Both the position numbers and the translations under genes were made by a program. A stretch of 54,206 nt of DNA from an uncultured Bacteroidota bacterium (GTDB lineage: Bacteria > Bacteroidota > Bacteroidia > Bacteroidales > UBA12077). Below are positions 22,621 to 54,206 of the stretch, piece after piece (the stretch's first letter is position 1; each line of letters opens with the position of its first letter). The stretch is from NCBI GenBank assembly GCA_913055635.1, contig CAJXLK010000032.1:1-54206 (forward strand), given 5' to 3'. Under the pieces are notes generated by a model. It worked only from the letters and a program-made list of their open reading frames with translations. It searched no databases and was not told where the DNA came from.

Positions 22621-23658
22621 TTAAGGGTTTCCGGGTGAAGATCGGGTTGAATCGCGAATGATCAACTCACTGTCGAGTAGTTTGGTGATGGGTTGATCGT
22701 CCTGGGCATTGCCTTCATTGTTGATCCGGTTGAGCAACAGTTGGGCCGCTTCGGTACCCATCAGATAGCCCTTTTGGTCGATGGTGGTCAGGGCCGGATC
22801 AGCAAACCTCGAGATCAGCCAATTGGTGAACCCCACCACCGATATATCCTGGGGAATCTGGTAGCCCATGTCCTTGATCATCTTCATCGCCCCCATCGCC
22901 GTCAGGTCGTTGACCGCAAAAATGCCATCCGGCGGCTGGGGCAATTCTAAAAGCTTTTTAATTTCTGAAAGGGCTTTTTCATAAGAATCACAAAAAACGG
23001 TGAGCTCAGGATCAAACGGTTTATTGTAGTCTTCCAGCGCCTTTTTGTAACCATTGAAGCGGTTCCTGCCAATGAGCAAATTCAGGGGGCCATATAAATG
23101 GGCAATTCTTTTGCATCCAATCCTGATCAGGTGCTCGGTGGCTTTGTAACCCCCTCCGAAATCATCCACGATGACTTTATCGGTGGAAATCTCTTCAGCG
23201 ATGCGGTCAAAAAAAACAAGCGGCAAACCCACTTCCTGGATGTTTTTGATGTGGTCCAGTTTTTGGGTCTCTTTGGAGATCGACATCAAAATGCCGTCGA
23301 TGTGACTCGACAGTAAGGTTTGAACATTCTTGATTTCCCTTTTGTAAGATTCCTGCGACTGACAAATGATGATGTTGTAGTTCTGTTCATAAAAGATGTC
23401 TTCAATGCCACTAATAACCGAAGAAAAAAAGTGATGAATGATTTCAGGAATGATCACCCCAATGGTTTTGCTTTGATTTTGAAGCAGACTTAAGGCAATC
23501 TTGTTGGGCCGGTAATTGTATTTTCGGGCCATTTCCTTTACCGCCTCGCGCGTTTCGAGATTGATGTCGGGATGATCCTTTAAAGCACGGGACACGGTAG
23601 AAGGAGAGATGTTTAATTTTTTGGCAATATCTTTGATCGTAATCTGGTGCTTTTTCAT
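22621..23658 (-). CDS. LacI-family transcriptional regulator of the alpha-glucan locus
   Basis: The protein has 345 residues. The helix-turn-helix is at about 7-26 (TIKDIAKKLNISPSTVSRAL) and the hinge helix ends near RPNKIALSLLQNQSKTIGVI. A periplasmic-binding-like sugar domain follows (DGILMSISKE, PLVFFDRI, CKRIAHLYGP, GIFAVNDLTAMGAM). It is divergent from susC across 195 bp that contain a LacI-type palindrome only 46 bp before its own start, so it probably controls itself and the susCD genes. In flavobacteria a LacI regulator takes the place of SusR for maltodextrin loci; by analogy a malto-oligosaccharide or a phosphorylated product may be the signal. Confidence 0.92.
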   Translation of the reverse strand: MKKHQITIKDIAKKLNISPSTVSRALKDHPDINLETREAVKEMARKYNYRPNKIALSLLQNQSKTIGVIIPEIIHHFFSSVISGIEDIFYEQNYNIIICQSQESYKREIKNVQTLLSSHIDGILMSISKETQKLDHIKNIQEVGLPLVFFDRIAEEISTDKVIVDDFGGGYKATEHLIRIGCKRIAHLYGPLNLLIGRNRFNGYKKALEDYNKPFDPELTVFCDSYEKALSEIKKLLELPQPPDGIFAVNDLTAMGAMKMIKDMGYQIPQDISVVGFTNWLISRFADPALTTIDQKGYLMGTEAAQLLLNRINNEGNAQDDQPITKLLDSELIIRDSTRSSPGNP

Positions 23659-23853: not shown

Positions 23854-26800
23854 ATGAAGATGGAAAAAAATATTATGAGACAAATCTTAATGATGGCCTT
23901 CCTTCTGGTTACTTTACCTGCTTTTTCTCAGCAGACGACCATAAGCGGTAAAGTAACAGATGCTGAGACGGGCGAGCCCTTGCCCGGGGTCAGCATTGTG
24001 GTGGAAGGCACACAAACAGGGACCTCTACGGATGTAGAGGGCAATTATTCATTTCAAGTACCGGAAGATGCCATGTTGGTGTTTTCCTTTGTAGGTTATC
24101 AGACCCAACGCCTTCCGGTAGAAGGACGAACCACCCTCAACGTGGAGTTGCAGCAGCAAGTACAGGAAATGGAGGAAGTGGTGGTGATCGGCTATGGTGA
24201 AGTTAAGAAAGAAGACGCCACCGGGTCGGTCTCGAAGATTTCCACCGAGGACTTCCAGCAAGGGGCCATCACTTCTCCGCAAAAGCTTTTGCAAGGCAAA
24301 GCTGCGGGTGTTCAGATCACCACCAGCGGCGGAGCTCCCGGCAGCGGAACCCAGATCCGCATTCGCGGGGCCTCTTCCCTGACGGCCAGCAGCGATCCAC
24401 TGATTGTTATTGATGGGGTGCCCATGTCGGGCGAAGGCGTCTCGGGCATGCGCAATCCTTTGAATTCGATCAACCCGGCCGATATTGAAAGCATCTCGAT
24501 TCTGAAGGATGCCTCAGCCACGGCCATTTATGGTTCAAGGGCCACCAACGGTGTGATCCAGATTACCACCAAGAGTGGAAAGGCTGATCAGCCTATGCAA
24601 ATCAATTACCAGGGCAAATTATCCCTGAATACCCCCACCGATCAGGTAGATGTGTTGGGGGCTGATCAGTTTTCTTCCATGATCAGCGAGCGCTTTCCCA
24701 AGAGCGATACCCTTTTGGGCCCTACCCGCACCGACTGGCAAGATCAGATATTCCGCAATGCCATTGCCCAGCACCATAACCTGAGCGTTTCCGGAGCCAC
24801 CAACAATTTGCCCTATCGCGTATCTTTGGGCTATTCCGATGAACAGGGCATTCTGAAGACTTCCAACCTGAACCGAACCACCCTGGCTGCCAAACTTACC
24901 CCCACCTTCTTGGATGGCGACCTCGACGTGAATTTTAGTTTGAAAGGGGTACACATCAACAACCGTTTCGCCGATAACGGGGCCATTGGTTCGGCCGTTT
25001 CTTTTGACCCGACACAACCGGTTCATGACCAGGACAGTCCTTATGGCGGTTTCTTTACGTGGACCCAACCCAACGGCGATCCCATCACCATTGCCCCCAG
25101 CAACCCGCTGGCTTTGCTTAAACAACGGGAAGATGAGTCAACTGTGAACCGGGCCATCGGTAACCTGGAACTGCGGTATAATACGCCCTTGCCGGGTTTG
25201 TCGGCTACTTTTAAAGTCGGATACGATTATACCGAAAGCGACGGAACCAACCGCGTAGATCGCAGGGCTTCCTGGGAATACAACCCCAATCCGGATATAA
25301 CCAGCGGTTCGGTCTCCAATTATACCCAGGAGAAAAAACACGAGTTGATGGATTTTTACCTGAATTATCAAAAGGAATTTCCTTCCATCGCCAGTGACAT
25401 CAACGTGATGGCTGGCTATTCCTATGAGCATTTCTGGAATGAAAGCTTTAATGAGTCCATGTCCCTGCCTCCCCTCGCACAGGATTCTGTTCAATGGGGA
25501 GATAAGCGGATTGCTACCCCTAATCAGGTAGATACTACTTCTGCTCCGGACTATTTCACCACTGAGCATTATCTGGTATCTTTCTTCACCCGGATGAATT
25601 ATACCTTCAAGGATCGTTATCTGTTAACCTTTACCCTGCGTCGTGATGGTACCTCCAGGTTCTCAGAAGACAACCGCTGGGGGCTCTTCCCCTCGCTGGC
25701 ACTGGCCTGGCAAATCCATAAGGAGCCTTTCCTTGAAAATGTTGATGCGCTGAACAACCTGAAACTCAGGTTCGGTTATGGCGTGACCGGCCAGCAAAAT
25801 ATCGTTGACAATAACTATCCCTATTACGCCCAGTATACATATTCCACACCCACGGCCATGTACCAGCTGGGCGATGAATTCGTCCGAACCATCCGGCCGG
25901 AAGATTACAATATGTCTTTGAAATGGGAGGAAACCACAACCTACAATGCAGGTATTGAATACGGCCTCTATGACAACCGGTTAACCGGTTCTCTGGACTT
26001 CTATTATAAGAAAACCGAAGATCTGATCAATACCGTACCGGTGGCCGCCGGGACTAATTTCACCAACCGGATCATTTCCAATGTGGGTTCATTGGAAAAC
26101 CGCGGGGTTGAATTCTCCATCACCGGCCGACCCATCTCTCAGGAAGATCTGTTCTGGGAAATTTCTGCCAATGCCTCTTACAATGAAAATGAGATTACCA
26201 AACTGACAACCGTAAACGATCCCGACTATCAGGGCGTTATAACAGGTGGCATTTCAGGCGGGGTAGGCAATCAGATTCAAATTCACAGTGTCGGTCATCC
26301 CCTGAGTTCTTTCTATGTCTACGAACAGGTGTATGATCAGGACGGAGATCCCATCAATGGGGTTTATGTTGACCGCAACGGCGACAACCAAATCACCATC
26401 GACGACCGCTATCGCCTGAAAGACCCTGCCCCGGACGTTTCGGTAGGCTTATCTTCAAGGCTCAATTATAAGAACTGGGATTTCTCGTTCTCGGCAAGGG
26501 CTGAGTTTGGTAAGTATGTTTACAACAACATCAGTTCCGGCCACACCTTTTATGAAGAACGGGTAGGTCCCAACGGATTCCTGCGCAATGCCACCAGCGA
26601 TATCACCGAGATTGGTTTCCAGAATGCGCAGTATCAATCCGATATATATATCGAAAACGGTTCCTTCCTGCGGGTCGATAATATGGAAGTGGGTTATTCT
26701 TTCCAGGAACCTTTTGGAAGCCGTTCCAACCTGAGGGTTTATACCATGGTGGAAAATCCTCTGCTGGTAACCGACTACAGCGGTCTGGATCCGGAGATCC

Positions 26801-26871
26801 CAAACGGCATTGATAACAATGTGTATCCAAGACCTACCGTTTTCTTGTTAGGGGTAAATCTTGATTTTTAA
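23854..26871 (+). CDS. susC: SusC-type TonB-dependent outer-membrane transporter
   Basis: The protein has 1005 residues. A signal peptide (RQILMMAFLLVTLPAFSQ) is followed by a carboxypeptidase-regulatory-like domain at about 28-110 (ISGKVTDAETGEPLPGVSIV). The TonB box region is EEVVVIGYGEVKKEDATGSV. The plug has LQGKAAGVQITTSGGAPGSG and LIVIDGVPM, and the 22-strand barrel ends in VYPRPTVFLLGVNLDF. It would import oligosaccharides across the outer membrane using TonB energy. susD follows after 32 bp, and the glucan-specific enzymes nearby point to malto-oligosaccharides. An ATG at 23854 is used; 23860 is also possible. Confidence 0.95.
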   Translation: MKMEKNIMRQILMMAFLLVTLPAFSQQTTISGKVTDAETGEPLPGVSIVVEGTQTGTSTDVEGNYSFQVPEDAMLVFSFVGYQTQRLPVEGRTTLNVELQQQVQEMEEVVVIGYGEVKKEDATGSVSKISTEDFQQGAITSPQKLLQGKAAGVQITTSGGAPGSGTQIRIRGASSLTASSDPLIVIDGVPMSGEGVSGMRNPLNSINPADIESISILKDASATAIYGSRATNGVIQITTKSGKADQPMQINYQGKLSLNTPTDQVDVLGADQFSSMISERFPKSDTLLGPTRTDWQDQIFRNAIAQHHNLSVSGATNNLPYRVSLGYSDEQGILKTSNLNRTTLAAKLTPTFLDGDLDVNFSLKGVHINNRFADNGAIGSAVSFDPTQPVHDQDSPYGGFFTWTQPNGDPITIAPSNPLALLKQREDESTVNRAIGNLELRYNTPLPGLSATFKVGYDYTESDGTNRVDRRASWEYNPNPDITSGSVSNYTQEKKHELMDFYLNYQKEFPSIASDINVMAGYSYEHFWNESFNESMSLPPLAQDSVQWGDKRIATPNQVDTTSAPDYFTTEHYLVSFFTRMNYTFKDRYLLTFTLRRDGTSRFSEDNRWGLFPSLALAWQIHKEPFLENVDALNNLKLRFGYGVTGQQNIVDNNYPYYAQYTYSTPTAMYQLGDEFVRTIRPEDYNMSLKWEETTTYNAGIEYGLYDNRLTGSLDFYYKKTEDLINTVPVAAGTNFTNRIISNVGSLENRGVEFSITGRPISQEDLFWEISANASYNENEITKLTTVNDPDYQGVITGGISGGVGNQIQIHSVGHPLSSFYVYEQVYDQDGDPINGVYVDRNGDNQITIDDRYRLKDPAPDVSVGLSSRLNYKNWDFSFSARAEFGKYVYNNISSGHTFYEERVGPNGFLRNATSDITEIGFQNAQYQSDIYIENGSFLRVDNMEVGYSFQEPFGSRSNLRVYTMVENPLLVTDYSGLDPEIPNGIDNNVYPRPTVFLLGVNLDF

Positions 26872-26903
26872 AAACTTAAACAATACACGATATTATGTAT
26901 ACG

Positions 26904-28493
26904 ATGAAAAATAAAATATGGATCGCAGTGGTCATGATCTTCATTATGGCGTTCAGTTCCTGTACGGAAGATTTGGACGTACAGCCCCTGGACGATGATG
27001 CCACCACTGCTGAAACAGTTTACGACAGTGTAGCCTCCTATCGCCAGGTGTTGGCTAAACTTTATGCCGGATATGCCCTGACGGGTCAGCAGGGGCCAGC
27101 AGGTGACGCTGATATCCAGGGTATTGATGAAGGGTTTTCCAATTACCTTCGCCAGTATTGGGTAGCTCAGGTGTTACCCACTGATGTAGGCGTTGTGGCC
27201 TGGGCTGATCCCGGCTTGCCGGCTTACAATTACCAGAGCTGGGGATCTTCCAATGACTTTGTCATGGCCATGTACAGCCGTATATTCTATGAGATTACCC
27301 TGACCAACGAGTTTATCCGGGAATCTTCAGAAGGGAAATTGAGTTCGCGGGGATTCAGTGAATCCCAAAAGGAGCGGATTCGCACTTTCAGGGCGGAAGC
27401 CCGTTTCCTGAGGGCATTGAGTTACTGGCATGCCCTGGACCTCTATGGCAATGTGCCCTTTGTTACCGAAAAGGATGACGTAGGTGCTTTTCAGCCTGAG
27501 CAGATATCGCGGGAGGATTTATTCACCTACATAGAAGAAGAACTCAAAGCCATTGAGGATGAGATGGCAGAGCCCCGCCAGAATGAATATGCACGGGCCG
27601 ATCAGGCTGCTGTCTGGACCCTTTTGGCCAAACTTTACCTCAATGCCGAGGTCTATACCGGCGAACCCCGTTATGAAGATTGCATTACATACTGCAATAA
27701 GGTGATGGATGCCGGTTATACCCTGGAAGATGAGTACCAAGATCTGTTTTTGGCTGATAACCATACGGCCAATGGCATCATCTTTCCCATTGCATTCGAT
27801 GGCAACCATTCCCAAACCTGGGGTGGAACCACCTTCATCATCAGTGCGGCCATCGGCGGCAACATGAATCCAACGAATTTTGGCGTTGCAGGTGGCTGGG
27901 CCGGTCACCGGGTTACCAAACAGTTTGTTCAGAAGTTTGGCCAGGATACAACATGGGACAGCCGGGCCATGTTCTTCACCGACGGGCAGTCCCTTGAAAT
28001 CAATGATGTGGCCATCTTCCAACAGGGCTATGCCGTGTCCAAGTTCAAAAACATCACCTCCACCGGTCAGAGTGGGAGCAATTCGACTTTCCCCGATACC
28101 GATTTCCCAATGTTCCGGTTGGCTGATGTATACCTGATGTATGCCGAAGCCACCGTTCGAAGTGGTGCCGGTGATGAAGCCCGGGCGGTACAACTGATCA
28201 ATGATCTCAGGGAAAGGGCCTTTGGCGATGATTATTCCGCCCATGGCGAGATAACAACCGGAGACCTGGACAAACAGTTCATCCTCGATGAACGGGCCCG
28301 CGAACTTTATTGGGAAGGCCACCGGCGTACGGACCTGATCCGTTATGGCCATTTCACCACTTCCGACTACACCTGGGCATGGAAGGGTGGAATACAGGAA
28401 GGCCGCGCTACCGATGACCATTACCGGCTTTATCCCATCCCGGCATCGGATTTGAACGCCAATCCGAAACTTACGCAAAACGAAGGTTATTAA
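26904..28493 (+). CDS. susD: SusD-type surface glycan-binding lipoprotein
   Basis: The protein has 529 residues from the ATG at 26904; an ATG nine bases earlier only adds three residues before the signal. The lipobox is AFSSC with the lipid cysteine at residue 20. The helical TPR-like body is seen in RTFRAEARFLRALSYWHAL, then DLYGNVPFVTE. The family's C-terminal signature is FILDERARELYWEGHRRTDL, then IRYGHF and a final YPIPASDLNANPKLTQNEGY. It caps the SusC channel and captures oligosaccharides. It sits 32 bp after susC and 19 bp before the SusE-like gene, so the three form one operon. Confidence 0.95.
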   Translation: MKNKIWIAVVMIFIMAFSSCTEDLDVQPLDDDATTAETVYDSVASYRQVLAKLYAGYALTGQQGPAGDADIQGIDEGFSNYLRQYWVAQVLPTDVGVVAWADPGLPAYNYQSWGSSNDFVMAMYSRIFYEITLTNEFIRESSEGKLSSRGFSESQKERIRTFRAEARFLRALSYWHALDLYGNVPFVTEKDDVGAFQPEQISREDLFTYIEEELKAIEDEMAEPRQNEYARADQAAVWTLLAKLYLNAEVYTGEPRYEDCITYCNKVMDAGYTLEDEYQDLFLADNHTANGIIFPIAFDGNHSQTWGGTTFIISAAIGGNMNPTNFGVAGGWAGHRVTKQFVQKFGQDTTWDSRAMFFTDGQSLEINDVAIFQQGYAVSKFKNITSTGQSGSNSTFPDTDFPMFRLADVYLMYAEATVRSGAGDEARAVQLINDLRERAFGDDYSAHGEITTGDLDKQFILDERARELYWEGHRRTDLIRYGHFTTSDYTWAWKGGIQEGRATDDHYRLYPIPASDLNANPKLTQNEGY

Positions 28494-28512: not shown

Positions 28513-29598
28513 ATGAAAAGGTTAGCATCAATTTTAACAATTATAGTTGGCTTAAGCCTGTTGATGGTCTCTTGCCAAGAGATGGAGACGGGGCCTAAAC
28601 TGGATTATGACAAAACCACCCCGCCAAGCATTCAGGAACTTGACCAACAGAGCTTTGAGCTGGAGGAAGCCAATGCTGAACAAAACCTGGTGACCTTCAG
28701 ATGGAGCGATGCCGATTTCGGCATCAACCTGGAGAAGTCTTATTCGCTCCAGATGGACTTTGCCGGCAACAATTTTTCCGATCCAATGGAGCTGGCCAAT
28801 ACCAAAGCGGACTCGGCAAGCTTTACCGTCTCTGACATGAACAACCGATTGCTGATTATGGGGGTCGCCCCGGGTACCGAGCAAACCCTGCAGTTCCGGG
28901 TCAGTGCCATTGTGAACCAGTTCACCGATACCCTGCATTCGGAAGTGATTGAAGTCACGATGAAGCCTTATGAGGTGATCATCGATTACCCGGAGATTTA
29001 TGTACCCGGCGGTTACCAGGGATGGAGCCCCGGCACTGCCCCCCCGATCTTTGACGTCAACAACAGCAATGTCTATGAGGGTTATCTGCTGATGTCAACC
29101 GGCCCGGGCGAAGGTACGGCCTTTAAATTCACCCAGGGCCGTAGCTGGGATACCAACTGGGGCGATAATGAAGCCGGTGGCAGCGAACTGGGTGACGGCA
29201 CCCTCGAACCCCAGGGCGTGGGCAACGACATCTATGTGCCCGATTCGGCTTACTATAAACTCTCAGCTGATCTGAACAACCTGACCTACACAGTCACCAA
29301 GACCCACTGGAGCATCCAGGGATCAGCCACCGGCGGCGACCTGATGGAGATGAGCTATGATCAGGACAATGAAGTATGGACCATTTCCGCCGACCTGTCG
29401 GGAGGTGACTTCCAGTTCATTTCCAAAGACAGCGAAGAGATGATATCAGGGGAAACCTCCGATTTGATCTATGGCAAGGAAAATCCCATCTACGTGCAGG
29501 AAGATGGCGCACCCATTGCCATCGAATCGGCAGGCAATTACACCATTACCCTCGATCTGAGCCGGCCACCCTACGGCTACAAGGTCACTCAAAATTAA
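28513..29598 (+). CDS. SusE/SusF-like outer-membrane glycan-binding lipoprotein
   Basis: The protein has 361 residues. The signal peptide ends in LMVSC with the lipid cysteine at residue 21. An N-terminal SusE-type domain of fibronectin-like fold (about 40-155) is followed by two carbohydrate-binding modules. The first carries YVPGGYQGWSPGTAPPIF at about 164 and the second WSIQGSATGGDLMEM at about 272. These modules match the starch-binding repeats of SusE and SusF, where tryptophans stack on glucose rings. It probably holds starch at the surface beside SusCD. It is the last gene of the operon, ahead of the terminator at 29614. Confidence 0.88.
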   Translation: MKRLASILTIIVGLSLLMVSCQEMETGPKLDYDKTTPPSIQELDQQSFELEEANAEQNLVTFRWSDADFGINLEKSYSLQMDFAGNNFSDPMELANTKADSASFTVSDMNNRLLIMGVAPGTEQTLQFRVSAIVNQFTDTLHSEVIEVTMKPYEVIIDYPEIYVPGGYQGWSPGTAPPIFDVNNSNVYEGYLLMSTGPGEGTAFKFTQGRSWDTNWGDNEAGGSELGDGTLEPQGVGNDIYVPDSAYYKLSADLNNLTYTVTKTHWSIQGSATGGDLMEMSYDQDNEVWTISADLSGGDFQFISKDSEEMISGETSDLIYGKENPIYVQEDGAPIAIESAGNYTITLDLSRPPYGYKVTQN

Positions 29599-29613
29599 AA
29601 AATACCCCTTTAA

Positions 29614-29655
29614 CTCACTTATCCGGGATGATGGCCCGGGTAAGTGGGTTTTGTT
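29614..29655 (+). terminator. rho-independent terminator after susCD-susE
   Basis: CTCACTTATCCGGG pairs with CCCGGGTAAGTGGG (two G-U pairs), with a 6-7-nt loop and a T-rich tail (TTTTGTTT). It lies about 15 bp after the SusE-like stop. Confidence 0.85.
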
Positions 29656-29781
29656 TGATGAAGACTTCTAAATAATAAGGTTTTGTTACTTGCGGAGTGG
29701 CGGAGTTTTCATTCAGAATAATTTGCACAAGCACTTTTAAATTTATATCTTGTATTGTTGAATCAAAAAACGAAAAAGCCC

Positions 29782-32040
29782 ATGAAAAGATTTACCCTAC
29801 TCTTATTGTTTATAGCTTTTGCGGCATTTTCCTATGCCCAACAAGCTGATTCGGTGAATGTAACCCTTAATGCTGATTTCAGGCCCTACATTGAAAGCCA
29901 GTACAACGATCCGGCTTTTGATGCTGAAAACGATTCGGTCTACATCTCCGGCACCATTCTTCAACCAGGTACCGATAACAACTGGTCAGAGCCTGGTACC
30001 TATATGGGGGCCATGATGACCGATGAAGACAACGATTCGATTTACACCTGGACCGAAAAAGTACCGGCCGACAGTTCATACGCCTATAAGCATTTTTATG
30101 TTCCGGCCGGTCAAGGCAGCAGCTGGGATAATGGTGACTGGGATGGCGATCCCAACCGGATGCTGGAAGTGGGAAGTGAAGATGTAACTGTAAACCAGCT
30201 GTTTGGTGGTGTAACGGCTGCCATCAAGGTGATGGACATGAAAGAGGACACCGCCATCGAGAATGCTTCTGTAACCCTGGCTGGTGAATCGATGACTACG
30301 AATGCCGAGGGGCTGGTTATGAAGAACCTGCTCCACGACAGCACCTATGCATATAGCGTTTCCGCTTCCGGCGGCTTTCAGAGCGTATCCGACTCAATGG
30401 ATGTGCATCGCGAGAAGGATACCCTGGTGGTTGAATTGATGAAGAACATGGTTACCTTTAAGGTGGACCTGAGCGATACCATTGCCAACGGCAGTGACTT
30501 TGTCTATGGTGAAGACAGCGTTTATGTGGCCGGCAGTATGCTGGGCTGGAGTGAACCCGGAACAGATATGAGGGGACTGATGACCGACGCCGATGGAGAC
30601 AGCATTTTTACCACCACCGTTCCTGTTTCGGCGGGTGATATTCAGTACAAATATTTCTACGTACCTGCCGGTGAAGGCAGCAGCTGGAATTACGGCGAAT
30701 GGCAGGGAGGTAGCAACCGTGAAGCCACCATCCCCAATGAGCACATCACTTTGGCTGATACATGGGGCTATATGGGCCAGATGGTTACCTTCAATGTTAT
30801 GAATGCCAACGAAGAAGCCATCGAAGGGGCCAAGGTTTTTGCCGGTATGAGCTCCAATACCACCAGTTCCGATGGCCTGGCCACTTTCAATCTGACTGAT
30901 GGCGATTACAGTTATACAGCCAGAAAAGGTGGTTTTGTTGATTCCACCGGTAGCTTTACCGTCGAGGGTAATGATACCACCATCAATGTGATGATGACCG
31001 AAGGCCCATGGGTTACCTTCAACGTTGATATGACCCGTTACGCCGATACCTCCAGTGAATTTGAATATGGTATGGACGTCTACATGTCCGGTGATATGGT
31101 AGGCTTTGCACAGCCCGGTACCAACCCGGCCATGAAGATGACCGACTATGATCAGGACCATGTTTATACCCTGAGCATGGGGCTGGGTGCCGGCGATTAC
31201 CAAATGAAATATTACTTTGTACCGGATACTTCTGCCGCCAGCTGGAGTTATGGCGAATGGGACGGCTTTGACAACCGCATGATCAGCGTACCTGACAAGG
31301 ATACCACTTTCAACCACATGTGGCATACCTGGAAGCTGACCTTCAGCGTAATGGACAATACCGACGCCGCGGTAGAAGATGCGACCGTGGAAGTTGACGG
31401 TTCCATGCTCCATACCAATTCTGATGGCGTGGCCGATACCCTGATTTCCAGCCTGCCTGATCCACATGAATATTCCGTAATGAAGGATGGCTATAAGGAC
31501 GTCAGCGGCTCCGTTTCCATTCCATACAAGGATACCACGGTTCATGTAACCCTGATGAAGTATTATACGGTAACCTTTAACGTGACCGACGGAAGTGATC
31601 CGATTGAAGGCGCCAGCATCACCGTTGGCGATAGCAGCCGCACCACCGGTGCCGAAGGTACCGCCACCATCATGCTGGTCAATGGCGATTACAACTACAC
31701 CGTTACCGCCGACAACTTTGAAGAGGCTTCCGGCTCCTTCTCCGTTGCCGATGAGGATCAAACAGTGGACGTGACCATGACGGCTACCGCCATCGATAAT
31801 CCGCTGGCTAAGAAACTGGAGGTTTATCCCAATCCAACTTCTGGCAACCTCACATTGACCGGTAAAGATCTGCAGAACGCCCAGGTTACCATCCTCAATT
31901 CCATTGGTAAACCCGTTGAGCGCATGCAGCTGAGTGGCAATACCAATTACCTGGATCTGAATGATCTGAATTCCGGCATCTATTTCATTAAGATCGAAAA
32001 AGACAACAACAGTGTGGTTCGTAAGATCCTGATTAAATAG
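29782..32040 (+). CDS. T9SS-exported protein with three starch-binding-like modules
   Basis: The protein has 752 residues from the ATG at 29782. After a signal peptide (FTLLLLFIAFAAFSYAQ) come alternating domains. Starch-binding-like modules lie at about 27-143, 223-331 and 410-530. Each has an aromatic pattern such as VYVAGSMLGWSEPGT, M-x-D-x-D-x-D and SSWNYGEWQGGSNR. Between and after them are carboxypeptidase-regulatory/PEGA-like beta domains (about 147-222, 334-408, 531-600, 603-672) with the GxxxTxxxG pattern. The last 75 residues (KLEVYPNPTSGNLTLTGKDL, ending in VRKILIK) are a T9SS type A sorting tail. It should be a surface or secreted starch-binding protein, without any catalytic domain. 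It stands behind its own promoter region, 183 bp after the SusE-like gene. Confidence 0.85.
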   Translation: MKRFTLLLLFIAFAAFSYAQQADSVNVTLNADFRPYIESQYNDPAFDAENDSVYISGTILQPGTDNNWSEPGTYMGAMMTDEDNDSIYTWTEKVPADSSYAYKHFYVPAGQGSSWDNGDWDGDPNRMLEVGSEDVTVNQLFGGVTAAIKVMDMKEDTAIENASVTLAGESMTTNAEGLVMKNLLHDSTYAYSVSASGGFQSVSDSMDVHREKDTLVVELMKNMVTFKVDLSDTIANGSDFVYGEDSVYVAGSMLGWSEPGTDMRGLMTDADGDSIFTTTVPVSAGDIQYKYFYVPAGEGSSWNYGEWQGGSNREATIPNEHITLADTWGYMGQMVTFNVMNANEEAIEGAKVFAGMSSNTTSSDGLATFNLTDGDYSYTARKGGFVDSTGSFTVEGNDTTINVMMTEGPWVTFNVDMTRYADTSSEFEYGMDVYMSGDMVGFAQPGTNPAMKMTDYDQDHVYTLSMGLGAGDYQMKYYFVPDTSAASWSYGEWDGFDNRMISVPDKDTTFNHMWHTWKLTFSVMDNTDAAVEDATVEVDGSMLHTNSDGVADTLISSLPDPHEYSVMKDGYKDVSGSVSIPYKDTTVHVTLMKYYTVTFNVTDGSDPIEGASITVGDSSRTTGAEGTATIMLVNGDYNYTVTADNFEEASGSFSVADEDQTVDVTMTATAIDNPLAKKLEVYPNPTSGNLTLTGKDLQNAQVTILNSIGKPVERMQLSGNTNYLDLNDLNSGIYFIKIEKDNNSVVRKILIK

Positions 32041-32718: not shown

Positions 32719-35571
32719 ATGAAATTGCTCAAATTCAGTGTTTTATTATTTATAGTTTCCCTGATGGCTTTGGGTCAGGGATATTCACAACTCATTGAGA
32801 CCGAACCGGGCTTTCCGGTTGCCAATGATTCAGTGACCGTTTATTTTGATGCCACCCAGGGCACCGGCGGGCTTGCAGATTATGATGGAGATGTGTATGC
32901 CCATACCGGGGTCATCACAGAAAAAAGTTCCAATAATTCGGATTGGAAATATGTGGTTGCTGATTGGGGAGAAAACATCGATAAGATCAAAATGGAACGG
33001 GTAGAGCCCAACCTCTATAAGCTTGATATCACCCCAACGGTAAGGGAATATTATGGGGTACCGGAAGATGAAACGATAGAACAGATGGCCTTTGTCTTCA
33101 GAAATGCAGATGGCTCCAAAGAAGGCAAGGCCGAAGGCGGGGCGGATATCTTTGTCGACGTTTATCAAAGTACTTTTAATGTGAAGTTGGTCCAACCTGA
33201 GGAGGACCCCCTGATTCGCCAGGATCTTTCTGTGCTCAATATCACCGGAATTGGAAACAGCGACAGCGCGGATATGGAGCTTTCCCTGTCGATTGACGGA
33301 AGTACGGTAAAGACCGTTACCGACGACACCCTCCGTTATGCTTTTGAGCCCGCCCAAAGGAAACATTATGAAATGGAGCTTACCGGCACCGACGGGCTTG
33401 GAAAAGATACGGCCCGGCGAACCCTGATTGTGAATCCGGCCATTCAGAACCAAGAAAGGCCTGCCGGTCTGAAAGACGGCATCACCTATGTGGATGATCA
33501 AACAGTTCGTTTGTCGTTATTTGCACCCCACAAGGATTTTGTATATGTTCAGGGAGATTTCAACAACTGGCAGATTCAGGATGAATATTTCATGAAGCGC
33601 GATTCTGTTGCTCAGGACAGTGTCTATTACTGGATTGAGCTTTCCGGTTTAACCCCCGGTAAGGAGTATGGCTTCCAGTACCTGGTCGATGGCAACATCA
33701 AAGTTACCGATCCCTATGTACATAAGATCCTGGACGGGGCCAATGACCCATATATCACCGACAAGACGTATCCGAACCTGAAACCTTACCCCAGCGAAAA
33801 GACCGAACATATCGTGGGGGTTTTACAGCCCGGAAAGGATGAATACACCTGGCAGACCCAGGATTATCAGCAGCCCGAAAAAGAGGATCTGGTGATTTAT
33901 GAACTGTTGATCCGTGATTTTTTGGATCAGCACGATTTTGAAACCCTGACCGATACCCTCGACTACCTTGATCGCTTGGGGGTGAATGCCATTGAATTGA
34001 TGCCGGTCAATGAATTTGATGCCAATAGTTCCTGGGGGTATAATCCCACTTTCCACGTGGCGGTGGACAAATACTACGGGCCGGCCCGTGACCTGAAGGC
34101 ATTCATTGATTCCTGCCATTCCAGGGACATGGCCGTTATACTGGATATGGTCCTTAATCATGCCTGGGGGCCCTCGCCATTGGTTCGTCTTTGGAATGAA
34201 GGGGACTACGGGAACCCGACCCCTGAAAATCCCTATCTCAATGTAGAAGCCCGCCATGATTTTAATGTGGGCTATGATTTCAACCATGAGAGTGCGGCGA
34301 CCCAGTATTTCGTTGACCGGGTCAATCGCTACTGGCTGGAGGAATTTCATTTCGATGGCTTCCGTTTTGATTTGTCCAAAGGCTTCACCCAAAACAACAC
34401 TTTGGGTAATGTTTCTGCATGGGGAGCCTACGATGCCTCCAGGGTTCGCCTGCTCAAGCGCATGGCCGACAGCATTTGGGCCACCGATAGCAGCGCTTAT
34501 GTGATTCTTGAACATTTTGCTGAAAACAAGGAGGAAAAGGAACTGGCCCATTACGGGATGATGCCCTGGGGCAACATGAACCACAACTACAACGAGGCCA
34601 CCATGGGATATCATGACCAGGGCAAATCAGATTTTTCAGGCATTTCCTATCAGCAGAGAGGATGGAACAAACCCCACTTGGTGGGTTATATGGAAAGCCA
34701 TGATGAACAGCGGTTGATGTACAAGAACCTGGAATATGGCAATTCCAGCGGCGGATATGATGTCACTGATCAGGGCACTGCCCTGGACCGGGTAGAACTG
34801 GCAGCTGCTTTCTTCCTGCCGGTGCCCGGACCAAAGATGATCTGGCAATTTGGCGAGCTGGGCTATGATGTTTCCATTGATTATGATTGCCGGACCTGCC
34901 CCAAACCCATCAAATGGGATTACTACCAGCAGGAGGACCGCCGGGATCTTTACCGGGTTTTTCAAACCCTCAATACCCTTCGCCAGGAATACGAGGTTTT
35001 CCATACCTCCAATTTTAGCCTCTCAACGGCCAATGCCATGAAGCGCATCCGGTTGCAACATGAAACCGCTGATGTGGTGATCCTGGGTAATTTCGGCCTT
35101 TCATCAGGCACCATCGATCCCAAATTTACCCAGGAGGGCAAGTGGTTTGAAATCTTTACCCAGGACAGCCTCCAGGTGGATGATGTCAATGGTAATATCA
35201 CCCTTTCCGCCGGTGAATACCGGATGTATGCTACCCAAAAGATGCTTTGGGAAACCACCGACACCACCGGCAACGATACCACCACCAGCATTGCCCCGGT
35301 CAACCGGAAAGGCAAGGTAACGGTCTACCCCAATCCCGCCCGGGGGCCTGTGCATTTTGAATTTGAAGGGGGTGTGAAAGACCAGGCCTGGCTCCATATT
35401 TACAATGCTTCAGGAAGGAAGGTGGCCACTGTCCGGAGAAAAAACCTTCATTCCGGGCTGAATACCATCCGGTGGAAACCCCATGGAAACAATGCCTCTC
35501 AACCGGTTATGTATTTCTATGAATTGATCATAGGAGAGGAGAGGCATACCGGAAAGCTGATGACTTACTGA
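32719..35571 (+). CDS. secreted GH13 alpha-amylase-family enzyme with T9SS sorting tail
   Basis: The protein has 950 residues. A signal peptide ends near residue 24. The N-terminal domain (about 30-155) is of the starch-binding type seen in Bacteroidota amylases, and a second beta domain covers about 160-245. A CBM48-like module covers about 258-345 (RLSLFAPHKDFVYVQGDFNN). The GH13 barrel starts near 390 (DLVIYELLIRDF). Region I is DMVLNH at 476-481. The nucleophile is D551 (FDGFRFDLSKG), the acid/base is E598 (YVILEHFAENK), and D662 lies in ESHDEQR. The last 80 residues (VTVYPNPARGPVHFEF to the end) form a T9SS tail. It should cut starch or maltodextrins outside the cell before SusCD uptake. 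Confidence 0.93.
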   Translation: MKLLKFSVLLFIVSLMALGQGYSQLIETEPGFPVANDSVTVYFDATQGTGGLADYDGDVYAHTGVITEKSSNNSDWKYVVADWGENIDKIKMERVEPNLYKLDITPTVREYYGVPEDETIEQMAFVFRNADGSKEGKAEGGADIFVDVYQSTFNVKLVQPEEDPLIRQDLSVLNITGIGNSDSADMELSLSIDGSTVKTVTDDTLRYAFEPAQRKHYEMELTGTDGLGKDTARRTLIVNPAIQNQERPAGLKDGITYVDDQTVRLSLFAPHKDFVYVQGDFNNWQIQDEYFMKRDSVAQDSVYYWIELSGLTPGKEYGFQYLVDGNIKVTDPYVHKILDGANDPYITDKTYPNLKPYPSEKTEHIVGVLQPGKDEYTWQTQDYQQPEKEDLVIYELLIRDFLDQHDFETLTDTLDYLDRLGVNAIELMPVNEFDANSSWGYNPTFHVAVDKYYGPARDLKAFIDSCHSRDMAVILDMVLNHAWGPSPLVRLWNEGDYGNPTPENPYLNVEARHDFNVGYDFNHESAATQYFVDRVNRYWLEEFHFDGFRFDLSKGFTQNNTLGNVSAWGAYDASRVRLLKRMADSIWATDSSAYVILEHFAENKEEKELAHYGMMPWGNMNHNYNEATMGYHDQGKSDFSGISYQQRGWNKPHLVGYMESHDEQRLMYKNLEYGNSSGGYDVTDQGTALDRVELAAAFFLPVPGPKMIWQFGELGYDVSIDYDCRTCPKPIKWDYYQQEDRRDLYRVFQTLNTLRQEYEVFHTSNFSLSTANAMKRIRLQHETADVVILGNFGLSSGTIDPKFTQEGKWFEIFTQDSLQVDDVNGNITLSAGEYRMYATQKMLWETTDTTGNDTTTSIAPVNRKGKVTVYPNPARGPVHFEFEGGVKDQAWLHIYNASGRKVATVRRKNLHSGLNTIRWKPHGNNASQPVMYFYELIIGEERHTGKLMTY

Positions 35572-35803: not shown

Positions 35804-37222
35804 TTAATTCAGCACATAGATTTTATAGCCCCAGGGTTTTAACTGTACCTGTGTATTGGGCCCAAAAGTCTTTTGTTCTCCATTCAGGGCATTTTTATAT
35901 TCGCCGGTATAGGCGTCTCCCTTGAACTGAACGGCATGTTGGTTATCGGAAAAATTCAGGATGGTAAAGATCTGATTTTCCCCTTTTTTACGGATGAAGG
36001 CGAAAATATCTTTTTTCTGGTTGGATTGAATTCTGGTGAGCTGCCCGCCGAATTTTCCGTTCCATAGGCTTGAATTGTCTTGCTTGAGTTGGTTCATTTG
36101 TTTATAGAACGCATCCATGTCACAATCTTTTTCCCAGTTGATGGGATCCCTTTTGAAAAATTCCAGCCTTTTGTCCAGGCAGGCTTCCTGGCCGCTGTAT
36201 ATGAGTGGCATTCCGAAAAAAGTATAGGTAAAGGCGGCAAATGTTTCGGCTCCTTCGCCCATCCTTTCGTAAACCGTTCCGTTCCAGCTGTTTTCATCGT
36301 GGTTGGAGGTGAAGTTCATCCGGTAGGCGTTGTCCGGGTAATTTTTTCGTTCCTTTTTCAGGTATTCATCCAGGGCCTTTACCTGTTGCTTATCCTGGGC
36401 AACCTGATTCATGATATGGTGGAGTTCCCAGGCGTAAGTCATATCAAAAGCCCGGTGATATTTGGGACCTTCGGCTTCAGCCAGCATAAAGACATCTTTG
36501 ATCTGGTCCAACTCCCGGTGTACACGGCTCCAGAAATCAACCGGTATCATGTGCGCCACATCACATCGATAGCCATCAATGTGGGCCTGCTTGACCCAAT
36601 ATTTCATGGCATCCACCATATAATCGCGAACTTCCTGCTTATCATAATCCAAACCGGCTACGTCCGACCAGTCTTCAACAGGGGGGCGGATGTTGCCGGT
36701 GGAATCTTTCAGATACCATTCGGGATGTTTATTGATCAGGGGATTATCCCATGCGGTATGATTGGCTACCCAGTCGATGATCACTTTCATATCATGTTGG
36801 TGGGCCTTTTCAACCAGCGATTTAAAATCTTCCATGTCCCCGAAATTGGGGTTGATTCCGTAATAGTCCTTCACCGAGTAATAGCTGCCCAGTTTGCCTT
36901 TGCGGTTTTTCTTGCCAATCGGATGGATGGGCATGATCCAGAGGATATCAACGCCCAACTCTTTCAACCGGGGAATGTGCCGGGTGAAAGCATTGAAGGT
37001 GCCTTCCGGTGTAAACTGACGGATGTTTACTTCATAAATGCTGGCATCCTTGCTCCATTGCGGGTGAGCTACCTGGGCAACAGAGTCTTTTGATGCGGCA
37101 GGTTCTTGTTGGTCTTGTTTTTTGCCTGCCTGTTGACAAGCTGTAGAACCGATCAGCAGGGCCAAACCAGCCAGAAGGGACATAAAAACCAGCCCCCGGG
37201 TTATTCGAAGTTTCTTTTTCAT
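35804..37222 (-). CDS. lipoprotein GH13 alpha-amylase
   Basis: The protein has 472 residues. The lipobox is LIGSTAC (C29), followed by a flexible charged linker to about residue 52. The single GH13 barrel has no additional module. WVANHTAWDN (about 151-160) is region I, the nucleophile is D221 (IDGYRCDVAHMIP), the acid/base is E249 (FMLAEAEGPK), and D309 lies in NFTSNHDENSW. A short beta domain at the end is close to GYKIYVLN. It resembles Bacteroidota membrane-bound amylases such as SusG in role, facing either the surface or the periplasm. It is convergent with the T9SS amylase gene and divergent from the PFK gene. Confidence 0.92.
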   Translation of the reverse strand: MKKKLRITRGLVFMSLLAGLALLIGSTACQQAGKKQDQQEPAASKDSVAQVAHPQWSKDASIYEVNIRQFTPEGTFNAFTRHIPRLKELGVDILWIMPIHPIGKKNRKGKLGSYYSVKDYYGINPNFGDMEDFKSLVEKAHQHDMKVIIDWVANHTAWDNPLINKHPEWYLKDSTGNIRPPVEDWSDVAGLDYDKQEVRDYMVDAMKYWVKQAHIDGYRCDVAHMIPVDFWSRVHRELDQIKDVFMLAEAEGPKYHRAFDMTYAWELHHIMNQVAQDKQQVKALDEYLKKERKNYPDNAYRMNFTSNHDENSWNGTVYERMGEGAETFAAFTYTFFGMPLIYSGQEACLDKRLEFFKRDPINWEKDCDMDAFYKQMNQLKQDNSSLWNGKFGGQLTRIQSNQKKDIFAFIRKKGENQIFTILNFSDNQHAVQFKGDAYTGEYKNALNGEQKTFGPNTQVQLKPWGYKIYVLN

Positions 37223-38853: not shown

Positions 38854-41172
38854 TTAAGCCGGGTGATTGGCAGAGATCTGGTCCTGCTCTCCCAGCTCAA
38901 ATTGCTGGCCAAATAGGAACAGGGTAATGGGTTTGCCGGCTTGATTGTAAATGCGGGCTCCCTGCTTGTCCACTTCCAGTTTGATTTGCCGGCCCCTAAA
39001 TTTGATGATGAACGAATACAGATTCCATTGTTCCGGGATGAAGGGATTGAAGTGCAATTGTCCGTTCTGGATGCGCATCCCGCCAAAACCTTCCACAATG
39101 GTCATATAAGTCCCGGCCATGCTGGTTACGTGACACCCTTCGGCCACTTCATTGTTGTAGTCGTCCAGGTCCAGTCGGGCCGTTCTCAGGTAAAGGTTGT
39201 AAGCCTTTTCCGTGTAGCCCAGTTTGGATGCCAAAATTGCGTGGACACAAGGGGAGAGGGAGGATTCGTGAACCGTTCGGGGTTCATAGAAATCAAAATT
39301 CCGGCGGATGGTCTCCAGGTTATAGTTGTCTTCGAGGAAATAGAGTCCCTGCAAGACATCGGCCTGTTTGATGAAGCAGGAACGCAGGATGCGGTCCCAC
39401 GACCAGGTTTGATTCAATGGCCGTTCGCCGGGCTGTAGGTCATGAATGGTCATTTGTTCTTTATCCAGGTACCCTTCCTGCTGGAGGTAAACCCCTCTGT
39501 TGGCATCATAGGGGAAGTAAAGGTTTTCAATTATCTCCCTCCATTGATTGGTTTCAGTAATGTCATTGAAGCCCAGTTTGTCAACCAGGCGCTGGTATTT
39601 TTCGGGGGCCTCCCGGCTGACTTTATCGATGGCATACATGGTGTATTCCATGGTCCAGCTGGCGATCAGGTTGGTATACCAGTTGTTGTGCACGTTGTTT
39701 TCGTATTCATTGGGCCCGGTTACTCCAAGCATGACGTATTTTTGTTTGGGCTCGGAGAAGTTAACCCGCTGTCGCCAGAACCGGGAAATGGAGATCAGCA
39801 CTTCCAGGCCGTAGTCAAAAAGATATTGTTCATCGCCGGTATAGCGGATATAGTTGAAGATGGCGTAAGCGATGGCTCCATTGCGGTGTATTTCCTCAAA
39901 AGTAATTTCCCATTCATTGTGGGATTCCTCTCCGTTCATGGTCACCATGGGGTAGAGGGCTGCTCCGTTGGTAAAGCCCAGGTTTTGGGCATTCTCGATG
40001 GCTTTTTGCAGGTGCTTGTAGCGGTAGAGCAAGAGGTTCCGGGGTACAGACGGATCGGAGGTTCTCAGGTAAAAGGGCAGGCAATAGGCTTCGGTATCCC
40101 AGTAGGTGCTTCCCCCATACTTTTCGCCGGTAAAGCCTTTCGGGCCGATGTTGAGGCGTTCGTCTTCGCCGGTGTAGGTTTGGTTCAGCTGGAAAATGTT
40201 GAAGCGGATGCCCTGCTGGGCGGCCAGGTCTCCTTCAATGACAATGTCGCTGTCTTCCCACTTCTTCTCCCAGGCTTCGGCCTGTTCATGCAACATGCGC
40301 TCAAAGCCTTTTTTGACCGATGCATCCAACTGCTCTTCCGCGGCCTCGGTGAGCTTGTCTTTTGGGTGATTGAGGGAGCTTAAAATGGCCGCATACTTGT
40401 AAACGGTCAGCTGATCTCCCTGGGCTACATGGACAGTGGATTTTTTGCCAATGTATTTATTTCTCTCAATGGCCTCGATTTTAGGCTCGAGCTTTTCATC
40501 ATTGTTGTATAGGGTGAAATCCATGCCCAGGGTAACGCGGAAATCCAGTTTTTTTGTTTTGGCCGTGAGGGTGGCCCGGTTATCCGCCGATGCCGTTTTT
40601 TCGACTTCATCCCAGAACTTTTCGTTGTAATTGGCATCTTCATTCATGATGTCGGCGTCCAGATCCAGGGTGACCTCGAAATCGCCGGAAAAATTTTCAG
40701 GGGTGATTTCGTAGCGGATATTGCCGGTTTGATCATCTACAATGCTCAGGAAACGAATAGTGCGTACCCAAACGATTTTATTGCCCGGCAATACAGCGCG
40801 GAAAGTTCTCTCCAGGTGACCTTGCTTCATGTTGAGGGTGCGTACGAAATCTTTTACACCACATTGGGCCAGGTCAAGGGTGTGGCCATCTATTTGGAAG
40901 CGAATGCCAATCCAGTTGGGGGCATTCAGCACCTTGGCATAATACTCGGGATAACCATTTTTCCACCACCCTACTTTGGTCTTGTCGGGATAATAAATGC
41001 CTCCTATGTAATTGCCCAACAGGGAATCGCCCGAGTAATCTTCCTCGAAGTTGCCTCTTTGACCCATCCGGCCATTGCCTAAGCTGAAAATGCTCTCTGA
41101 AGCCCTGTGGTTGGCAGGCTTAAATCCTTCTTCTATAATTGACCATCCGTCATGTTTCAAGTATTCATTCAT
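38854..41172 (-). CDS. GH65 maltose phosphorylase
   Basis: The protein has 772 residues, typical of GH65 phosphorylases. The N-terminal beta-sandwich (RASESIFSLGNGRMGQRGNF) is followed by a linker helix and the (alpha/alpha)6 barrel (GFTGEKYGGSTYWDTEAY near 346). The likely general acid is E489 in VTGPNEYENNVHNNWYTN, a stretch characteristic of maltose phosphorylases. WEITFEEIHRNGA near 421 is also conserved. It splits maltose with phosphate into glucose and beta-glucose 1-phosphate. The beta-phosphoglucomutase gene directly upstream (28 bp) and the transporter before it support this. Trehalose or kojibiose phosphorylases share the fold but are less likely beside amylases. Confidence 0.92.
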   Translation of the reverse strand: MNEYLKHDGWSIIEEGFKPANHRASESIFSLGNGRMGQRGNFEEDYSGDSLLGNYIGGIYYPDKTKVGWWKNGYPEYYAKVLNAPNWIGIRFQIDGHTLDLAQCGVKDFVRTLNMKQGHLERTFRAVLPGNKIVWVRTIRFLSIVDDQTGNIRYEITPENFSGDFEVTLDLDADIMNEDANYNEKFWDEVEKTASADNRATLTAKTKKLDFRVTLGMDFTLYNNDEKLEPKIEAIERNKYIGKKSTVHVAQGDQLTVYKYAAILSSLNHPKDKLTEAAEEQLDASVKKGFERMLHEQAEAWEKKWEDSDIVIEGDLAAQQGIRFNIFQLNQTYTGEDERLNIGPKGFTGEKYGGSTYWDTEAYCLPFYLRTSDPSVPRNLLLYRYKHLQKAIENAQNLGFTNGAALYPMVTMNGEESHNEWEITFEEIHRNGAIAYAIFNYIRYTGDEQYLFDYGLEVLISISRFWRQRVNFSEPKQKYVMLGVTGPNEYENNVHNNWYTNLIASWTMEYTMYAIDKVSREAPEKYQRLVDKLGFNDITETNQWREIIENLYFPYDANRGVYLQQEGYLDKEQMTIHDLQPGERPLNQTWSWDRILRSCFIKQADVLQGLYFLEDNYNLETIRRNFDFYEPRTVHESSLSPCVHAILASKLGYTEKAYNLYLRTARLDLDDYNNEVAEGCHVTSMAGTYMTIVEGFGGMRIQNGQLHFNPFIPEQWNLYSFIIKFRGRQIKLEVDKQGARIYNQAGKPITLFLFGQQFELGEQDQISANHPA

Positions 41173-41200: not shown

Positions 41201-41863
41201 TTATTCCAGGGTTTTCAATTTTTCCAGGTTCATTTGATGCAGCCCGCTGATGACCATATCGGCCTGGCTTAACACATCGGGCGAGCCGACGCCTATGGTT
41301 CTCATCCCGCCATTTTTGGCAGCCTCAATGCCTGCCTGGGCATCTTCAAAGACGACACAGTGCTCGGGGGCAATCCCCATCTCTTCGGCCGCCTTTAAAA
41401 ATACTTCCGGGTCGGGTTTGCCTTTGGTGACTTTACTTCCGTCGATCAACGCATCCAGGTAACGCCCGATCTGCACCTGGCGTATAATGGTGGGAGCATT
41501 TTTACTGGCCGAGCCCACTGCAATCAGAATATGGGCCTCAGTGAGTTCTTCCAAAAATGGAATAACCCCTGGTAACAAATTCTCGGGTTGCATCTCGCGG
41601 ATATATTCTTGGTACCACTCATTCTTCTTGTTGGCCAGTTGCTTTTTTTCCTTCTTCTCTTTTTGAATATTGCCCAGCTCCAGGAGAATATCCAACGATT
41701 GCATCCGACCGATGCCCTTCATCTTTTCATTTTGCTCAGGGGTCAGATCAAAACCCAGTTCATTGGCCAGGCGTTTCCAGGCTTGATAATGATAGTGTGC
41801 CGTATCTACAATAACCCCGTCGAGGTCAAATATACAGGCTTGTATTTCATTTGAATTGCTCAT
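41201..41863 (-). CDS. pgmB: beta-phosphoglucomutase (HAD superfamily)
   Basis: The protein has 220 residues from the ATG at 41863. The 35 codons upstream overlap the transporter gene and do not look like part of the enzyme. The nucleophile motif is FDLDGVIVDT with D13 and D15. The cap carries YHYQAWKRLANELGF and KGIGRMQSLDILLEL, typical of beta-PGM. The later motifs are AVGSASKNAP (motif 2), KVTKGKPDPEVF (motif 3 lysine) and VVFEDAQAGIEAA (motif 4). It turns beta-glucose 1-phosphate from the neighbouring maltose phosphorylase into glucose 6-phosphate. Confidence 0.94.
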   Translation of the reverse strand: MSNSNEIQACIFDLDGVIVDTAHYHYQAWKRLANELGFDLTPEQNEKMKGIGRMQSLDILLELGNIQKEKKEKKQLANKKNEWYQEYIREMQPENLLPGVIPFLEELTEAHILIAVGSASKNAPTIIRQVQIGRYLDALIDGSKVTKGKPDPEVFLKAAEEMGIAPEHCVVFEDAQAGIEAAKNGGMRTIGVGSPDVLSQADMVISGLHQMNLEKLKTLE

Positions 41864-41927
41864 ATCATGGATGTGTTTTAATTTGCTGCTTTTATGCTTT
41901 GATCGATTGCCATTCAACGATTGGCCA

Positions 41928-53809: not shown

Positions 53810-54206
53810 ATGAAAGGAGTTTCAGGGGTCTTTTTGTTTTTTTGTCTCTTGGTTTCTGCTGCTTCCGCACAAAAAAAATTAACTGAACAAACCATCAACT
53901 GGCAGCCTCCCCGTCATTATCGGGTTCAACCCGATGCCCATCATCACCGATCGGGCCAATACTACCATTTTGAACATGCCCGCTATTTTAACCATCAAAC
54001 CCTTTTGCCCTATTATTATACTTTAATTCCCCTGAATCAACCCCACGATTACCGGGTTAAACTGGCCAATCAACAATTCCGGGAACTGAACCGGCAGGTC
54101 CAACTCAATGATGCCGCCCGTAAAAGCCTGGAAGATCAGGTGATCGTGGATAGCCGTTTGAGCTATGAACGAAACCGCCCATACTTGCAAGTGAAGTTTG
54201 TTCCCA
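53810..54206 (+). CDS. porU: T9SS sortase PorU, N-terminal part (runs off right edge)
   Basis: The frame from ATG 53810 stays open to the end and gives 132 residues. The signal peptide is KGVSGVFLFFCLLVSAASAQ. The mature part (LTEQTINWQPPRHYRV, the YHFEHARYFNHQTLLPYYYT strand, and VDSRLSYERNRPYLQV) matches the region ahead of the gingipain-like peptidase domain in PorU. PorU removes the sorting tail of T9SS substrates and attaches them to the surface. The catalytic part lies outside the window, so the call rests on the N-terminus and on its place opposite porP-gldK. Confidence 0.8.
   Translation, partial: MKGVSGVFLFFCLLVSAASAQKKLTEQTINWQPPRHYRVQPDAHHHRSGQYYHFEHARYFNHQTLLPYYYTLIPLNQPHDYRVKLANQQFRELNRQVQLNDAARKSLEDQVIVDSRLSYERNRPYLQVKFVP

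Follow-up and report, generated by a model that had tools for sequence, protein, structure and literature searches.

A predicted T9SS-exported, non-catalytic protein with three CBM20-type modules in a Bacteroidales starch locus

We analysed a contig of 54,206 nucleotides from an uncultured bacterium of the Bacteroidales, referred to here as the window. It carries a starch locus in which a LacI-type regulator on the minus strand is followed, on the plus strand, by susC, susD, susE, the gene under study (the window gene) and a GH13 gene. A second GH13, a GH65, a HAD hydrolase and an MFS transporter follow on the minus strand:

22621..23658, minus strand: LacI-type regulator (Pfam, NCBIfam)
23854..26871, plus strand: SusC (TIGR04056, 1.5e-247)
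26895..28493, plus strand: SusD of the starch type (best match NF033071, 1.4e-132; 442.8 bits, below its 725-bit cut-off)
28513..29598, plus strand: SusE (PF14292, 3.3e-24) with a lipobox cysteine read by eye
29612..29650, plus strand: terminator-like hairpin of 16 pairs between susE and the window gene (consensus scan only)
29782..32040, plus strand: window gene
32719..35571, plus strand: conserved partner GH13, which carries DUF4961, CBM48 and a weak T9SS tail (Pfam)
35804..37222, minus strand: alpha-amylase-like GH13 (Pfam), lipobox by eye
38854..41172, minus strand: GH65 (Pfam, NCBIfam)
41201..41968, minus strand: HAD hydrolase
41928..43691, minus strand: MFS transporter

We infer that the HAD hydrolase is perhaps a beta-phosphoglucomutase. 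The tail of the partner GH13 scored 20.7 bits against a cut-off of 27 and was not picked up by our own local model of such tails. The window gene is separated from susE by 183 bp and from the partner GH13 by 678 bp. Since hairpins lie in both gaps, it may be transcribed separately; the hairpins come from a consensus scan, and the region held 10 terminator-like sites against 8.1 in shuffles. A promoter pattern (TTTG-N20-TATCTTG) was found at 29722-29752, 30 bases before the ATG, and occurs twice in the window where 3.0 are expected. There was no Rfam match in the window and no PHROG match. Among the family genomes compared (G001-G024), the partner GH13 was found at 1e-80 in none of four genomes of the same genus, one of them 57% complete, and in 11 of the 20 from the other genus of the family. 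Because of this patchy occurrence the locus looks sporadic, gained or lost within the family.

The window gene starts with an ATG at 29782, ends with the stop codon at 32038-32040 and encodes 752 amino acids. A signal peptide is followed by three CBM20-type modules (C) and four transthyretin-like spacers (T) in the order C1-T1-C2-T2-C3-T3-T4, and by a C-terminal tail. The unit boundaries were set by us:

29782..29838, plus strand: signal peptide, type I by reading; cleavage site by eye, no cysteine
29839..30207, plus strand: CBM20-type module 1 with W68, K103, W115 and W120 (Pfam, alignments)
30208..30444, plus strand: CarboxypepD_reg / transthyretin-like spacer 1 (Pfam, unit comparison)
30445..30774, plus strand: CBM20-type module 2 with W256, K290, W302 and W307 (Pfam, alignments)
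30775..31002, plus strand: transthyretin-like spacer 2 (Pfam; model pLDDT about 83-96)
31003..31329, plus strand: CBM20-type module 3 with F442 in place of Trp, K476, W488 and W493 (Pfam, alignments)
31330..31560, plus strand: spacer 3 (Pfam, unit comparison)
31561..31785, plus strand: spacer 4, directly behind spacer 3 (Pfam, unit comparison)
31822..32040, plus strand: type A T9SS C-terminal sorting domain (Por_Secre_tail / TIGR04183) and stop codon (Pfam, NCBIfam)

On the whole protein, Pfam reported CBM_20 (2.4e-9, 37.3 bits against a cut-off of 23.3), X25_BaPul_like (3.5e-8, three stretches, over the cut-off), CarboxypepD_reg (1e-21, four stretches, over the cut-off) and Por_Secre_tail (1.1e-15, 58.1 bits against 27). 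Neither Pfam nor NCBIfam found any catalytic domain, in agreement with an earlier note on this DNA, which had called the protein non-catalytic and had described three copies of one aromatic-rich module alternating with beta domains before a sorting tail. BLAST of the whole protein against itself returned the full-length self match alone, so we compared the modules singly. Modules 1 and 2 are 43% identical (E 4e-26), modules 2 and 3 42% (6e-30) and modules 1 and 3 34% (3e-17). Smith-Waterman scores of the pairs were 165-241, far above the shuffle maximum of 59 (500 shuffles per pair), which bears out the triplication. Tryptophan, tyrosine and phenylalanine make up 13-17% of the modules and 4-9% of the spacers, so the description as aromatic-rich also stands.

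The identity of the module was approached by profile and by fold. A profile of 20 modules searched against the PDB matched best the starch-binding domain of Aspergillus niger glucoamylase (1ac0, 8.7e-6), and the CBM48 of AMPK-beta more weakly, from 0.008. Searched singly in Pfam at E up to 0.1, the same 20 modules matched CBM_20 (11/20), X25 (10/20), AMPK1_CBM (7/20) and CBM_48 (5/20), which are related starch-binding families; module 2 alone reached 19.2 bits for CBM_20, below the cut-off of 23.3. In a model of module 2 with spacer 2, the spacer was confident and the CBM part was poor, with pLDDT mostly under 50. The fold was therefore modelled on module 2 of a homologue from locus L072, 50% identical to window module 2, with pLDDT 77.4 and pTM 0.71. 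Foldseek returned 45 matches to this model at 1e-3, the best being the CBM20 of STBD1 with maltotetraose (4e-6). We take the 50 Foldseek rows listed to be starch-binding domains, either alone or as part of an enzyme. The model superposed on glucoamylase 2vn4 with Z 10.4 and rmsd 2.2 over 91 residues, and on domain 1 of Ruminococcus bromii Sas20 (7rft) with Z 8.2 and rmsd 3.6 over 98. The structure prediction thus resembles a carbohydrate module, as the earlier note had expected.

Alignment placed a W/K/W triplet at W68/K103/W115 in module 1, W256/K290/W302 in module 2 and F442/K476/W488 in module 3, where phenylalanine stands in place of the first tryptophan and the lysine and second tryptophan are kept. 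These are presumably the sugar-contact residues of CBM20 and CBM48 proteins. Among 36 modules found beside SusCDE or the GH13, the first position is W, F or Y in 36, the lysine is present in 35 and the second tryptophan in 34. The window protein is thus a predicted member of the CBM20-type module group. It shares the fold and the W/K/W positions with the CBM20 domains of glucoamylase, CGTase and STBD1 and with the related CBM48 and AMPK-beta domains, but differs in having three copies, in being a predicted stand-alone bacterial surface protein and in a longer 'VPxxxxSSW' loop.

The spacers proved to be beta domains, as proposed, but not the three PEGA-like ones of the earlier description: there are four, of CarboxypepD_reg/transthyretin-like type, the last two in tandem. 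They match one another at 2e-7 to 4e-18. PEGA (PF08308) was rejected as their name, since it scored 1.9e-5 (24.9 against 20.8 bits) with no single stretch passing, and CarboxypepD_reg was better at 1e-21. By Foldseek, with the model of module 2 and spacer 2 including its low-confidence CBM part as the query, the spacer lies near carboxypeptidase transthyretin-like domains, the SusC N-terminal extension, SlaB and pieces of cellulosome scaffoldin. SlaB was the top match by fold, and the SlaB model NF040788 matched with 56.7 bits, against a cut-off of 700; we rejected an S-layer protein, as the shared spacer fold explains the match.

The sorting tail was confirmed by Por_Secre_tail and by NCBIfam TIGR04183 for type A T9SS tails (53.3 bits against a cut-off of 23). 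The genome encodes SprA (2788 bits) and a PorU N-terminus (42.3 bits against a cut-off of 40). At the end of the contig lie T9SS genes, PorP/SprF at 52714-53688 on the minus strand and the start of PorU at 53828-54205 on the plus strand. PorU-linked surface anchoring is known from Porphyromonas. From these sequence features the window protein is a predicted type A cargo of T9SS. No cysteine occurs among its 752 residues, and it is therefore not a lipoprotein.

The nearest functional comparison is with SusE and SusF of the Bacteroides thetaiotaomicron Sus (PF14292, PF16411). In the Sus model, surface glycan-binding proteins are lipoproteins. Like SusE and SusF, the window protein is non-catalytic, has several starch-type modules, is expected at the outer surface and is encoded downstream of susC-susD in a starch locus. 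Unlike them, it has no cysteine, carries a T9SS tail and CBM20-type modules, and its locus has a separate SusE. PF14292 and PF16411 were not listed on the window protein at E up to 1, and PF16411 matched two of the 20 single modules weakly (best 0.015). With both the lipid cysteine and the family domain absent, its sequence places it outside the SusE/SusF family. SusE itself, according to excerpts of PMC8211771, combines a lipidated cysteine with an Ig/FN3 linker and a pair of beta-sandwich domains for binding.

We then asked what lies beside the partner GH13 in relatives. At 1e-80 this enzyme is found in 156 of 295 genomes of the order. We examined the 65 best-scoring GH13 loci, namely 60 plus five earlier ones (the window, L072, L076, L087 and L088), and counted over the 62 that have an upstream neighbour of at least 200 amino acids, a T9SS-tailed neighbour being counted on the same strand. 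Such a gene lies directly upstream of the GH13 in 22/62 loci, compared with 9/326 other ORFs (Fisher 6e-13), and in 17/57 when the five earlier loci are left out (Fisher 1e-9); both p values are nominal because the loci are related and nearest to the window GH13 and because the tail model was trained on 11 such tails. The other 326 ORFs were scored by this local model, and the Pfam confirmation covers the slot proteins only. In the remaining 40 of the 62 loci the upstream neighbour is something else. Downstream neighbours were T9SS-tailed in 2/55 cases.

The 22 upstream genes and one downstream gene (L118) all pass Pfam Por_Secre_tail, and none of the 23 products has a glycoside-hydrolase domain. 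By a local model, 13 of the 23 have window-type modules. Four have DUF4961 only (L097, L128, L130, L145), five have CBM9 with or without CBM48-type modules (L104, L114, L115, L129, L134), and that of L131 is cut by the contig end, its module being read by eye. A SusF_SusE-family protein occupies the same slot in L105 and in L117, of which L117 comes from the same family as the window. A phmmer search gave a SusE label to six more upstream neighbours (L098, L107, L137, L144, L148, L149); of the two searched in Pfam, SusE was confirmed in L107 and not in L149. SusE was seen in 6/22 loci with a T9SS protein and 10/43 without, so the two are not mutually exclusive.

Individual loci vary in their layout. 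L072, a Bacteroidales MAG and the sole match of one genome-contig scan, has LacI, a 530-residue three-module T9SS protein and the same GH13, with no SusCDE within its 12 kb. L087 and L088 have SusC-SusD-SusE, a two-module T9SS protein of 322 and 323 residues, respectively, and then the GH13, with a 163-residue ORF in between in L087. Outside the order, a GH13 orthologue was found in four of 20 loci fetched around module matches, directly beside the module protein in L164 and with a LacI gene between them in L166, L170 and L171. Two candidates were rejected as slot proteins: the 873-residue downstream neighbour in L098, a CotH kinase protein whose one module is still among the 36 counted above, and the 645-residue two-module T9SS protein of L085/L137, which is divergent to susC and not beside the GH13.

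A much larger protein occurs in L075 (4238-10051, plus strand), with 1937 residues and six CBM20-type modules, convergent to a GH13 of the same family; its spacers number up to twelve by phmmer, with nine CarboxypepD_reg stretches by Pfam. In L097, L128, L130 and L145, T9SS proteins of two or three DUF4961 units lie beside a GH13 with a DUF4961-like N-terminus. This arrangement suggests that DUF4961 may be an alpha-glucan-binding or pairing domain. We found no mention of DUF4961 in the CC-licensed PMC literature.

The module itself is not confined to this slot. It occurs in 38/295 genomes of the order (1e-6) and 26/395 across the phylum (1e-8). A search for a close orthologue in 24 other family members gave, among the matches listed, none outside the window's own genome that spans a whole CBM module. 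The 58-module set leaves out L117_247, the L137 copies of L085 and GH13-survey matches of at most 86 residues; 22 of its members lie outside the slot, and among these the lysine is kept in 22, the first tryptophan in 21 and the second in 22. Since the same W/K/W triplet is found away from the locus, the module alone is no proof of starch binding, and it is the locus that carries the inference. A place outside the slot can still be linked to starch: four of these modules, from L074, are part of a protein closely related to that of L075, and the two from L089 flank a long GH13 homologue. The remaining outside-slot loci contain no SusC, SusD, SusE or window-type GH13 relative in the fetched stretch, which is short in L081 and L092.

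The window's own genome encodes two further module proteins, of 2419 residues (LRR/cadherin-like) and 1654 residues, with whose modules window module 1 groups in the tree, with weak support. The larger (L039:4769-12028, minus strand) combines the N-terminal unit of the window protein, LRR/cadherin-like repeats read by eye and a T9SS tail, and its start is 38% identical to residues 1-232 of the window protein. A tailed GH13 lies about 3.4 kb from this gene, with an ABC-permease-like gene (by eye) in between. In family f135, of the same phylum and outside the window's class, seven loci (L154, L155, L156, L158, L159, L161, L162) share a conserved row of a SusC-like TonB barrel, a protein of about 1220 residues, one of about 295 and a T9SS protein of about 620 with four CBM20/48-type modules. 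In L154, the only one scanned, the roughly 1220-residue protein has no Pfam match and the roughly 295-residue protein belongs to the PorV family PF19572; it would be unusual for a cargo protein to have its own copy of PorV next to it. Similar rows occur in L160, L163, L167 and L168; where contigs in this set of loci are short, not all four genes are visible.

Taken together, the modules, the fold, the tail, the T9SS genes and the slot make it probable that the window protein is a non-catalytic, T9SS-exported surface protein that binds alpha-glucan for the starch locus, works alongside SusE, adds reach to it and takes on the role of SusF through a different export pathway. It would belong to a recurrent class of proteins in which modules are swapped. 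After Sec export, T9SS passage and removal of the tail, it would reach the cell surface through PorU-type anchoring or partly enter the medium. Its three modules, set apart by stiff stalk units, would attach to a single alpha-glucan (starch, glycogen or pullulan) at multiple sites and keep the polymer close to the adjacent GH13, to SusE and to the SusCD importer. Oligosaccharides would then pass through SusCD to the GH13 and GH65 enzymes. As the locus already has a SusE, the protein would work beside it and not replace the whole SusE/SusF pair. The CBM20 fold, the tail, the T9SS genes, the recurrence in the slot and the SusF_SusE proteins of L105 and L117 all favour the predicted function that the earlier note had likened to SusE/SusF with a different export route.

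Where the protein ends up is less certain. It could instead be a released factor which, once its tail is cleaved, passes into the medium or into vesicles, coats glycogen or starch and acts at a distance to recruit enzymes or cells. The type A tail and the missing lipobox would suit this, as would the weak tail of the partner GH13, but the PorU N-terminus and PorP/SprF encoded at the window's end speak against it. Amylase activity secreted by the T9SS of F. johnsoniae was found in supernatants, according to excerpts of PMC11885536. Overall we regard release as possible though rather doubtful.

Two further readings concern what the modules bind. The 2419- and 1654-residue proteins of the same genome and other large secreted proteins carry the same module, as would be expected if this were a stalk protein or a general adhesin of the cell surface, its CBM20-fold modules binding a protein or some other glycan, with the starch locus as one of several places. 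We consider this unlikely, as it is opposed by the repeated position beside the GH13 in many families, by the conserved predicted binding positions and by a tree sub-group of 17 modules confined to loci of the partner GH13 (one of them in the L098 CotH protein), although its fork is weak (78/81). Least probable of all is an amylosome-like scaffold to which several secreted amylases dock. The multi-module design, the spacer fold shared with cellulosomal scaffoldin pieces, a weak profile match to the 'cohesin-containing protein' 7rpy (0.0025, no stretch passing) and the fold match to Sas20 domain 1 (Z 8.2) point in its direction, but Pfam and NCBIfam showed no cohesin, dockerin or other docking domain in this protein. 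We therefore rejected the scaffold that the earlier note had raised, in its enzyme-docking sense.

A surface alpha-glucan-binding protein of this kind has partial counterparts elsewhere. Sas20, by its PDB title a starch adherence protein of Ruminococcus bromii, is also a starch-binding surface protein with a similar beta-sandwich, but matches less well than CBM20; its host is Gram-positive, with other export and attachment. The chitinase FjChiA presumably carries a T9SS tail. In excerpts of the respective sources, FjChiA, CpChiA, for whose locus such a tail is stated (PMC10449523), and the T9SS-exported F. johnsoniae amylases (PMC11885536) are, like the window protein, secreted multimodular CBM-bearing proteins, but they are catalytic. 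CHU_1279 of Cytophaga hutchinsonii, which is SGBP-B-like, likewise binds without catalysis and belongs to a glycan locus of a Bacteroidota species; it binds cellulose and is described as an outer membrane protein with two CBM-like domains, and the abstract names no CBM20 modules (PMC12016534). A non-catalytic T9SS-exported starch-binding protein is not described in the excerpts of PMC11093988, PMC8211771, PMC11885536, PMC11206854, PMC10449523 and PMC12016534, nor in any title or abstract start listed in searches of the CC-licensed PMC literature, which leaves most subscription literature outside.

On a wider reading, for which we find the case evenly balanced, T9SS-exported non-catalytic starch-binding proteins would form a distinct, widespread and fast-shuffling class in the SusF place of environmental Bacteroidota starch loci. 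Each lineage would fill the slot by one conserved GH13 with the binding protein available to it, either SusE/SusF-type or a T9SS cargo with CBM20-type, DUF4961 or CBM48 and CBM9 modules. The window protein would then be the stalked three-module form and the L075 protein the six-module form. If environmental Bacteroidota do use T9SS in this way too, PUL annotation that considers only lipoproteins beside susCD would miss a component that captures starch or glycogen. The slot would also be a natural experiment, in which one and the same enzyme is paired with a variety of binding modules and routes of export, and could be used to test what a SusE/SusF-type protein contributes.
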